From Actinomycetota bacterium (lineage in GTDB: Bacteria > Actinomycetota > Thermoleophilia > Gaiellales > Gaiellaceae): DNA of 64,000 nt. Below, in pieces: positions 34,853 to 38,401 of the stretch; the stretch's first letter is position 1; each line of letters begins with the position of its first letter. The DNA lies in NCBI GenBank assembly GCA_003161615.1, contig PMOB01000010.1:1-64000 (forward strand), written 5' to 3'. The position numbers and the translations under genes were made by a program. Below the pieces are notes generated by a model, which saw only the letters and a list, made by a program, of their open reading frames with translations, searched no databases and had not been told where the DNA came from.

Positions 34853-35767
34853 GTGAGTGTCGAGACGAAGCCACGGGAGATTGCCGTGATCGGCGCGCCG
34901 ATGGATCTCGGCGCGGGCCGGCGCGGGGTCGACATGGGCCCGTCGGCGATCCGCTACGCGGGCATCGAGCAGCACCTCGTCTCCAAGCTCGGCGTCACCG
35001 TGTCGGACATCGGCAACGTTCTCGCGCCGGTCGCCGAGTCGACGGACGAGGGGGACGAGAACGCTCGCTTCCTCGAGCAGATCCTCGACCTCTGCAACCG
35101 CGTCGCCAAGCTCGTGGCGGAGGCGGCTCGTCGCGGCGCGATGCCGCTCGTGCTCGGCGGCGACCACTCCGTCGCGCTCGGCTCGCTCGTGGGGATGGCG
35201 CAGGCGCGCGGCCGGGGCGGCGTCGTCTGGGTCGACGCCCACGGCGACCTCAACACGCCGGCGACATCGCCGACCGGGAACGTGCACGGCATGGTGCTCG
35301 CCGCCGCGCTCGGGCTTGCGGGCGAGGCGTTCGGCCGGGACGACTGGCCGCTGCCCGCCATCGAGTCTGGAAAGCTCGCGCTCGTCGGCGTCCGCTCGCT
35401 CGACGACGGGGAGCGGAAGCTCCTCCACGAGCTCGAGGCGAAGGTGTTCACGATGAGCGAGGTCGACCGGATCGGCATCGAGCCGTGCATGCGCGAGGCG
35501 CTGGCGCACGCATCCGGGGCCGGCTTCCTCCACGTCTCGCTCGACATGGATGCCGTGGATCCCGACGTGGCGCCCGGCGTCGGCACGCCGGTGCGCGGCG
35601 GCCTCTCCTACCGCGAGGCGCACCTCGCGATGGAGACGGTTGCGGAGTTCGGGTTCGCCGACTCGATGGATGTCGTCGAGGTCAACCCGATCCTCGACCG
35701 CGAAAACACGACCGGCCAACTCGCCGTCGAGCTCGTCGCCTCCGCCCTCGGCGCCACCATCCTCTGA
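34853..35767 (+). CDS. rocF: Arginase
   Basis: 304 aa ureohydrolase that splits arginine to ornithine and urea. N-terminal IAVIGAPMDLGAGRRGVDMGPSAIR is arginase-specific. Mn ligands: VLGGDHSVALG, WVDAHGDLNTPATSPTGNVHGM and SLDMDAVDPDVAPGVGTPV. The SxxxNxHGM variant fits arginase rather than agmatinase. GTG 34853 sits 7 nt after a TAGCCT hexamer. Convergent with rarA, 49 nt between stops. Confidence 0.95.
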   Translation: MSVETKPREIAVIGAPMDLGAGRRGVDMGPSAIRYAGIEQHLVSKLGVTVSDIGNVLAPVAESTDEGDENARFLEQILDLCNRVAKLVAEAARRGAMPLVLGGDHSVALGSLVGMAQARGRGGVVWVDAHGDLNTPATSPTGNVHGMVLAAALGLAGEAFGRDDWPLPAIESGKLALVGVRSLDDGERKLLHELEAKVFTMSEVDRIGIEPCMREALAHASGAGFLHVSLDMDAVDPDVAPGVGTPVRGGLSYREAHLAMETVAEFGFADSMDVVEVNPILDRENTTGQLAVELVASALGATIL

Positions 35768-35800: not shown

Positions 35801-35819
35801 TAGGCGAGCGCTCCGCCTA
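35801..35819. repeat. TAGGCG...CGCCTA inverted repeat between rocF and rarA
   Basis: 6-bp arms around AGCGCTC; the right arm contains the rarA stop. Possible weak bidirectional terminator without a U-tract. Confidence 0.35.
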
Positions 35820-37076
35820 CGACTCGCTTTCGCCTGACTCCTCTTCGCCGTTTCCGGACGGTTCGTAGTACGTCCGGTCCCGTAGCTCCTCGGGGAGGTA
35901 GCTCGCCTCGAAGCCGGCCGGATCGCCGTGCGGGTAGACGTAGCCCTCGCCGTGGCCGAGCTTGCGGCCGTACCAGGAGGCGTTGCGCAGCGCCTTCGGC
36001 GGGCGGCTCGCGCCATGCTCGAGGACGTCGGCTGTGGCGCGGTTCAGCGCCATGTAGCTCGCGTTGGATTTCGGCGCCCGCGCGAGATAGATCGCCGCCT
36101 GGGAGAGGTTGAGCCGCGCTTCGGGCAGTCCGACGTGCTCGACCGCCTGCGCCGCCGCGACCGCAACGAGCAGTGCGCGCGGATCTGCGTTGCCGATGTC
36201 CTCGGAGGCGAGGACGATCATGCGCCGGGCGATGAACCGCGCATCCTCGCCGCCCTCGAGCATCGCGGCGAGGTAGTAGACGGCCGCGTCGGCGTCGCTG
36301 CCCCGCATCGACTTGATGAAGGCGGACGTGTAGTCGTAGTGCGCGTCGCCGGCCTTGTCGTAGACGAGCGGCGGCTTGCGCGCGGCGTCCTCGACGTTCT
36401 CGACCGTGACCGCGCCGGTCGCCGTCTCGTGCGCGAGCTCGACGATGTTCAGCGCCGTGCGCGCGTCGCCTCCCGAGCGCTGGGCGATCAGTTGGACGAC
36501 CTCGTCGGACGCCTCGCCGCCGACCTCCGCCAGCCCGTGGCGGACCACGACTTCCATCTCCTCCGGCGTAAGCGTCTCGAGCTCGTAGACCTGCGTCCGC
36601 GAGATGAGCGCGGAGTTGACCTCGTAGTACGGGTTCTCGGTCGTCGCGCCGATCAGCGTCAGGAGGCCGACCTCGACGCCCGGGAGGAGCGCGTCCTGCT
36701 GCGCCTTGTTGAAGCGGTGGATCTCGTCGAGGAAGAGGATCGTGCGCGTTCCGCTCGTGCCGAGTCTCTCCCGCGCCCGCGCGAGCACCTCGCGCACGTC
36801 CTTCACCGTCGCCGACACCGCCGACAGCTCCTCGAACGCGGCGCCGGTCGTCGCCGCGACGATCCGGGCGAGCGTCGTCTTCCCGCTGCCGGGCGGGCCG
36901 TAGAAAATCGAGGAGTGGACTCGGTCCTCTTCGATCGCGCGCCGCAGCGCCGAGCCTTCGCCGAGGATGTGCCGCTGCCCGACGAAGTCGTCGAGCGTCG
37001 ACGGACGCAGCCGCTGCGCGAGCGGTGCGAACTCGCTGCTGCGGCGGTCGGCCGCCTCGGAGAAGAGATCCGACAT
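35817..37076 (-). CDS. rarA: RarA/MgsA replication-associated AAA+ ATPase
   Basis: 419 aa. [26 protein letters not shown], Walker [16 protein letters not shown], Walker [21 protein letters not shown], sensor LIGATTENP and arginine-rich C-terminal [28 protein letters not shown] and [17 protein letters not shown] are typical. Acts at stalled forks with SSB. ATG 37076; CATACT lies 6 nt upstream. Diverges from the M20 peptidase with 20 nt between starts. Confidence 0.95.
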
Positions 37077-37082
37077 GAACGA

Positions 37083-37090
37083 AGTATGCT
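37083..37090. promoter_or_regulatory. Overlapping divergent -10 elements, rarA and M20 gene
   Basis: Plus TATGCT (37085-37090), N6, ATG 37097. Minus CATACT (37088-37083), N6, ATG 37076. The two hexamers share four base pairs, so both starts are placed symmetrically for leaderless transcripts. Confidence 0.6.
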
Positions 37091-37096
37091 CGGCGC

Positions 37097-38401
37097 ATGT
37101 CCGGGACCGATCTCCGCGACGAGGTCACGGACCTCCTCCAGCGGCTGATCCGCGTCGATACGACGAACCCGCCCGGGAACGAGACGGCGGCGGCCGAGCT
37201 GCTCCGCGACTACCTCGCGGCGAACGGCGTCGAGTCGGAGCTGATCGCGAAGGTGCCCGAGCGCGCCAACCTCGTGGCGCGGATTCCCGGCGGCGACGGG
37301 CCGACGCTCCTACTCCTCTGCCACACCGACGTTGTGCTCGCCGACCCGGCCGAGTGGTCGGTGCCGCCCTTCTCCGGCGAGCTCCGCGACGGCGAGGTCT
37401 GGGGACGCGGCGCGCTCGACATGAAGAGCCAGGTGGCGGCGAACGCTGTCGCGATGGCGTCGCTCGCGCGCGAGGGGTTCAAGCCGAGCGGCGACCTGAT
37501 CTTCGCGGCGACCGCCGACGAGGAGGTCGGCGCGGGCTTCGGCCTCGAGTGGCTGTGCGAAGAGCATCCCGACGCAGTTCGCTGCGACTACGCCGTCAAC
37601 GAGGGCGGCGGCGAGCGGCTCGAGCTCGCCGACGGGACGATCCTCTACCTGCCGACGGTCGCCGAGAAGATGACCGCGCCGTTCACGCTGCGCGTGCGCG
37701 GCCGCTCGGGGCACGCGTCGATGCCGCGCATCGCCGACAACGCGCTGGTCAAGGCGACGGTGCTGATCGAGCGGATTGCGGAGTACCGGCCGGAGCCGCA
37801 GCTCGGTCCCGAGGTCGAGGGATTCCTGCGCGCGGCGCTCGGTGAGGTGCCGCCGGCGCAGGACGCTGTGGAGCGGGTCGCAGCGGCGTCACGGCCCGCT
37901 GCCGCTCTCGTTGACGCCCTCCTCGTGCCGACGTTCTCGCCGACGATCATCTCCGCCTCGCAGAAGCGGAACGTCATCCCGGCGCTCTGCGAGATCGAGG
38001 TGGACTGCCGGCTCCTGCCCGGCCAGCACCCGGAGCACGTCGAGCCGATGATTCGCGCGGTGCTCGGCGGCGACGTCGACTACGAGCTCGAGTGGATCGA
38101 GGCGCGCGGCGGGACGCGCTCGCCGCTCGACACGCCGCTCTGGAGCGCGCTCGAGGAGTTCGTAGCGGAGGCGGTGCCCGGCGCAAGGGCGGCGCCCCTC
38201 ACATGCGCCGGCTTCACGGACAGCCATTGGCTGCGCGACGCCTTCGGCACGGTCGCCTACGGCTTCTTCCCCGCGAGTGGCGAGATGCCCGCGGAGCTCG
38301 CCGCGACGCTGATCCATTCCGCCGACGAGCGGATTCCGGTCGCCGATCTCGAGCTCGGCGTGCGCTGGCTGCGCCATGCGGCGCAAACCGTCCTCGGCTG
38401 A
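37097..38401 (+). CDS. M20-family metallopeptidase (ArgE/DapE/CPG2-like)
   Basis: 434 aa zinc peptidase or deacylase. Metal and catalytic residues: LLLCHTDVV (His), WGRGALDMKSQVAAN (Asp), FAATADEEVGAGFG (Glu-Glu), NEGGGERLEL and the terminal AATLIHSADERIPVADL (His). The dimerisation domain begins PFTLRVRGRSGHASMP. Exact substrate cannot be read from sequence; the form resembles those annotated as acetylornithine deacetylase-like or carboxypeptidases. Confidence 0.9.
   Translation: MSGTDLRDEVTDLLQRLIRVDTTNPPGNETAAAELLRDYLAANGVESELIAKVPERANLVARIPGGDGPTLLLLCHTDVVLADPAEWSVPPFSGELRDGEVWGRGALDMKSQVAANAVAMASLAREGFKPSGDLIFAATADEEVGAGFGLEWLCEEHPDAVRCDYAVNEGGGERLELADGTILYLPTVAEKMTAPFTLRVRGRSGHASMPRIADNALVKATVLIERIAEYRPEPQLGPEVEGFLRAALGEVPPAQDAVERVAAASRPAAALVDALLVPTFSPTIISASQKRNVIPALCEIEVDCRLLPGQHPEHVEPMIRAVLGGDVDYELEWIEARGGTRSPLDTPLWSALEEFVAEAVPGARAAPLTCAGFTDSHWLRDAFGTVAYGFFPASGEMPAELAATLIHSADERIPVADLELGVRWLRHAAQTVLG

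Follow-up and report, generated by a model that had tools for sequence, protein, structure and literature searches.

The 20-nt gap between rarA and a divergent M20 peptidase gene probably acts as a minimal bidirectional promoter of the sigma-A type, without −35 elements, that gives rise to two predicted leaderless mRNAs. If both transcription starts are confirmed, it would be about the smallest possible divergent control region, with a 20-nt gap that is all promoter and two leaderless mRNAs departing from it. The near-complete conservation of its core sequence despite changes of partner gene provides a natural test of the sequence constraint imposed by overlapping promoters, and of whether bidirectional promoters persist through rarA, through the partner or through both. 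Ready-made comparisons exist in sister lineages whose promoters are separate or overlap in another register. Throughout, the window is the whole 64,000-nt stretch of contig PMOB01000010.1 that was analyzed, and positions refer to it unless another sequence is named.

Two −10-like hexamers interlock within the gap

The minus-strand rarA gene (35817–37076) encodes an MgsA/RarA AAA+ ATPase (Pfam MgsA_C, 4.4e-60; AAA_assoc_2, 1.4e-21) and begins at an ATG whose A lies at 37076; in most family members the alignment of the product starts at its first or second residue. The nearest public relatives of this rarA come from uncultured Actinomycetota. On the plus strand, a gene for an M20 family peptidase or deacylase (37097–38401; Peptidase_M20, 1.5e-28; M20_dimer, 3.8e-16) begins at an ATG whose A lies at 37097. 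Both genes are predicted to be leaderless, and the gap between them, GAACGAAGTATGCTCGGCGC, spans 37077–37096.

At the center of the gap is the octamer AGTATGCT (37083–37090, no strand assigned), a predicted interlocked bidirectional −10 core. Its plus-strand hexamer TATGCT (37085–37090) fits the −10 motif TANNNT and is followed by the 6-nt spacer CGGCGC (37091–37096), which is the modal leaderless spacing, and by a predicted transcription start at 37097. Its minus-strand hexamer CATACT (37083–37088) is followed by the 6-nt spacer TCGTTC (minus strand, 37077–37082) and a predicted start at 37076; it has the −11A and −7T, while its −12 base is C. The four base pairs TATG (37085–37088, no strand) are common to both hexamers. 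An earlier note on this DNA had described a 20-nt separation of the two ATGs, with TATGCT-N6-ATG and CATACT-N6-ATG sharing four base pairs, and this description is exact. It had also called the promoters mirror images, which is approximate, as only one of the two hexamers fits TANNNT.

The octamer is nearly invariant across the family

We found rarA in 112 of the 129 genomes of the order and read its upstream region in more than 70. Among the 63 distinct rarA sites of the same GTDB family that carry the element, the first seven bases (AGTATGC) never vary, and the eighth base is T at 62. The immediate flanks carry only about 0.4–1.4 bits (63 sites). Within rarA itself (64 sequences), all 22 four-fold sites of the first 140 codons vary, and the longest stretch without variation over the first 420 nt measures 5 nt. 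The octamer is present somewhere in 98 of the 103 family genomes and in 33 of the 34 genera, and three of the family genomes inspected (G045, G072 and G081) are without it at rarA. Its distance to the rarA start is 6–9 nt in nearly all cases.

In this genome (2,323,381 bases), AGTATGCT occurs once. As a yardstick, a Markov model predicts about 2.1 occurrences in a 672-kb sample; this expectation is a better reference than a count of the reversed octamer, because the dinucleotide make-up of the latter differs. Within the window, the gap is the sole place where such an octamer has start codons 6–7 nt from both of its ends. The single genomic copy, this unique geometry and the conservation across the family together argue that the octamer is more than a chance match.

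The degree of fixation exceeds what a −10 element would need. Octamer positions 2, 6 and 7 are invariant at the family sites though TANNNT does not constrain them, and the base at −12 of rarA is always C, though an A at octamer base 6 would create TATACT in both directions. We considered whether G is generally preferred at −13, which would account for all eight fixed bases, and rejected the idea, since only 19 of 62 leaderless promoters in this genome have it. Recognition by sigma-A is thus not the full explanation of the fixation.

One alternative is that AGTATGCT serves chiefly as a binding site, overlapping the promoter, for a sequence-specific regulator or an alternative sigma factor. The near invariance of all eight bases, three of them beyond the needs of TANNNT, would suit such a site, as would the variation of ordinary −10 elements in the same family: the leaderless dus gene has TACCAT in 19 of 30 cases, and leaderless glyA has several forms. 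A third gene, kgd, showed no conserved TANNNT element and serves as a negative example only. Against this, the octamer has one copy here and about one to five in relatives, too few for a sizeable regulon; it has no conserved flanking half-sites, is never a perfect palindrome at the family sites and always has the same orientation relative to rarA. We therefore consider a regulator site unlikely.

Two side observations may be added. Leaderless dus genes (upstream regions L278–L307) often have GTCAAC some 17 nt ahead of TANNNT, which shows that the family is not devoid of −35-like elements. Separately, the sequence upstream of rarA in a public record labelled Acidobacteriota (L003) is the same as in the family genome behind L137, and the label of the record therefore looks wrong.

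The octamer persists while its partner genes change

The gene opposite rarA is not constant. The M20 orthologue directly adjoins rarA in about 20 family genomes; elsewhere the position is taken by genes for a SAM methyltransferase, a tryptophan 2,3-dioxygenase or a glyoxalase-like protein, and the M20 gene often lies further on. Because the partners change while the octamer stays, the octamer is not tied to the M20 gene. At 51 of the 63 family rarA sites, TATGCT has a divergent start codon at a distance of 6–9 nt. A few partners start at 10–13 nt or are preceded by a leader containing a Shine-Dalgarno sequence (L176 and L323).

These data bear on whether the octamer promotes transcription in one direction only, toward rarA through GCATACT or toward the partner through TATGCT, with the other fit being incidental. 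Each half can indeed live alone: G020–G022 have lost the partner-side T8 and retain only the rarA-side hexamer, whereas G072 and G081 retain only a partner-side TATCCT, with the rarA side decayed. Moreover, TANNNT-N6/7 precedes rarA in many distant Actinomycetota. A one-way element would nevertheless leave unexplained why changing partners so regularly start at the same short distance from TATGCT, why both outer bases (A1 and T8) are fixed and why the same octamer stands between other divergent starts. On balance, a one-way promoter is improbable, slightly more so than a regulator site.

The third of these points comes from 20 copies of AGTATGCT outside rarA that we inspected in relatives, of which 7 belong to two sets of orthologous sites, each next to a divergent start and with similar spacing. 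In L329, L337 and L338 (around position 400), the octamer lies between a cupin-like gene (minus strand, N6) and a dehydrogenase-like gene (plus strand, N7), and both starts could be placed in all three genomes. In L334, L336, L341 and L343 (also around position 400), it lies upstream of a methylmalonyl-CoA mutase-like gene (minus strand, N6–N8), and in L334, L336 and L343 a divergent start lies at N6; the opposite reading frame could plausibly encode a secreted protein in L336 and L343, is short in L334 and is uncertain in L341. These gene names were assigned by inspection and not by family search. The sites support the view that AGTATGCT may be a general two-way promoter, not one peculiar to rarA.

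A stronger proposal is that AGTATGCT is a fixed and portable two-way core promoter of the family, its eight base pairs leaving no position free and each being read in two interlocked polymerase-binding registers; it would be kept in some 33 genera despite the exchange of genes on one side, and reused at other divergent leaderless pairs. We advance this proposal tentatively, as one that could well be right but is somewhat more likely to be too strong.

Leaderless promoters are common in this genome

Promoter statistics were taken from 672 kb (29% of the genome), with genes called by a simple codon-usage method. TANNNT is found 38, 24, 14, 18 and 10 times at distances of 6, 7, 8, 9 and 10 nt before candidate starts, compared to a background of about 3.8; the average per spacer position is 20.8 versus 3.8, an enrichment of about 5.5-fold that is highest at 6 nt. 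This strong enrichment indicates that the genome commonly uses actinobacterial-type leaderless promoters. By contrast, CANNNT shows no enrichment ahead of start codons in the same sample (17.8 versus 14.6 per spacer position), which makes the CATACT of rarA an atypical −10 hexamer; C or G at −12 also occurs at rarA in family f4. The M20 gene, with TATGCT-N6-ATG and no Shine-Dalgarno sequence, has the arrangement that defines a leaderless TANNNT promoter (6–7 nt).

As side observations, TATGCT is depleted in the 672-kb sample (11 observed, about 32 expected from Markov models) and CATACT is mildly depleted (19 observed, about 29 expected), perhaps reflecting an avoidance of stray promoters. The arginase gene of the window (34853–35767) also reads as leaderless, with TAGCCT-N7-GTG.

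Other signals around the gap are scarce. TATGCT is the sole plus-strand TANNNT from 36700 to 37096, and the minus strand holds none between 37500 and the rarA start. No Shine-Dalgarno sequence is found in the 20-nt gap, and a sigma-70 scan of 36800–37400 returned no promoter-like site. No −35-like hexamer lies at the proper distance on either side (best, 3 of 6 matches). The earlier note was right that −35 boxes are absent, but it had attributed this to a lack of room; the space exists, and the corresponding positions fall in the first codons of the other gene. The conservation of the octamer, together with the absence of any other proper-strand TANNNT within about 400 nt upstream of either gene, favors real promoter use, and the earlier proposal that two leaderless −10-like elements overlap on shared base pairs is supported.

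It is very improbable that the promoters instead lie inside each other's gene and that translation is leadered, the octamer belonging to a leader or acting as an RNA signal: GGAG does precede the rarA-side element in many relatives (with the completing base at 42 of 63 sites), but in addition to the scarcity of other promoter signals, the variable spacer lengths show that the element is not coding. Two related candidates were rejected: GGAG as the rarA-side Shine-Dalgarno sequence, because the window reads CGAG at that place and the distance to the start would be 12 nt, and the octamer as coding sequence, because its spacers range from 6 to 9 nt and the reading frames differ.

A compact variant of known bidirectional promoters

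The preferred reading, a −35-less bidirectional promoter, implies the following mechanism. TATGCT on the plus strand and CATACT on the minus strand would interlock within AGTATGCT at a 2-bp offset, so that each direction's −11A faces the other's −10T. A housekeeping (sigma-A type) RNA polymerase would bind in either orientation, one at a time, and would melt the same base pairs in both. Transcription would then start at or beside the first base of either start codon, and the predicted starts are 21 bp apart. The geometry, the leaderless signal of this genome, the conservation, the exchange of partners and the separate promoters of relatives are observed, and recognition by sigma-A, the actual start sites and activity in both directions are parts of the model that we infer.

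The locus is best read as a compact, well conserved variant of the bidirectional promoters described by Warman, Grainger and colleagues in Escherichia coli, Salmonella and other prokaryotes (PMC12825309, PMC10268837). As defined in PMC10268837, such promoters have divergent starts 7–25 bp apart, a range that includes the 21 bp obtained here if transcription starts at the predicted start codons, and they share −10 base pairs on opposite strands, as the two elements do here (37085–37088) and across the family. The distances named as common for them are 18, 10 and 23 bp, and the modal 18-bp arrangement has −7T and −11A reciprocally paired, with other arrangements allowed; the rarA–M20 gap has instead the 21-bp register, with −11A opposite −10T. 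The present locus also differs in that the mRNAs made in both directions come from protein genes and are predicted to be leaderless, in that promoter and intergenic region coincide, and in that a whole bacterial family keeps the octamer fixed.

The leaderless promoters of Mycobacterium tuberculosis (PMC3898074) are similar in having TANNNT about 6–7 nt before the start and no conserved −35 element, and they include a divergent pair, prpD and Rv1129c, whose mRNAs are both leaderless. In contrast to them, the −10 elements of the rarA–M20 gap overlap each other, and one of these carries C at −12. We found no bacterial promoter in the open-access literature that is described as both leaderless and bidirectional.

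The E. coli studies also inform how the two directions may interact. Opposing polymerases cannot bind a bidirectional promoter together (PMC12825309), and by analogy with this steric exclusion, occupancy by a single polymerase is likely at the rarA–M20 gap, in keeping with the earlier suggestion that polymerase binds in only one direction at a time. The further claim that the two genes are forced into mutually exclusive firing is not supported: all five E. coli promoters tested were too weak at the basal level for polymerases to compete, and competition appeared only once one direction was strongly activated (PMC12825309). A dedicated switch between rarA and the M20 gene is also unlikely because unrelated genes repeatedly replace the partner while the octamer remains fixed. 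Regulatory coupling of the two genes is probably weak.

Other families of the order use different arrangements

In G120, the same locus has separate leaderless promoters, TAGATT-N6-ATG for rarA and TAGCGT-N6-ATG for the M20 gene, with start codons about 60 nt apart; G121 has separate promoters like those of G120. In G122 and G123, pairs of TANNNT-N6-start elements overlap (TAGCCT/TACACT and TAGGCT/TATACT), sharing only TA and thus having a different register; the gene opposite rarA in G122 encodes a DUF1385 protein. As judged from these sequences without a tree, the overlapped promoter seems to have arisen at least twice. An overlapped leaderless promoter of rarA and its divergent neighbor, in a different register with only TA shared, is seen at about 504–530 of L192 and L194, from two genomes of another family.
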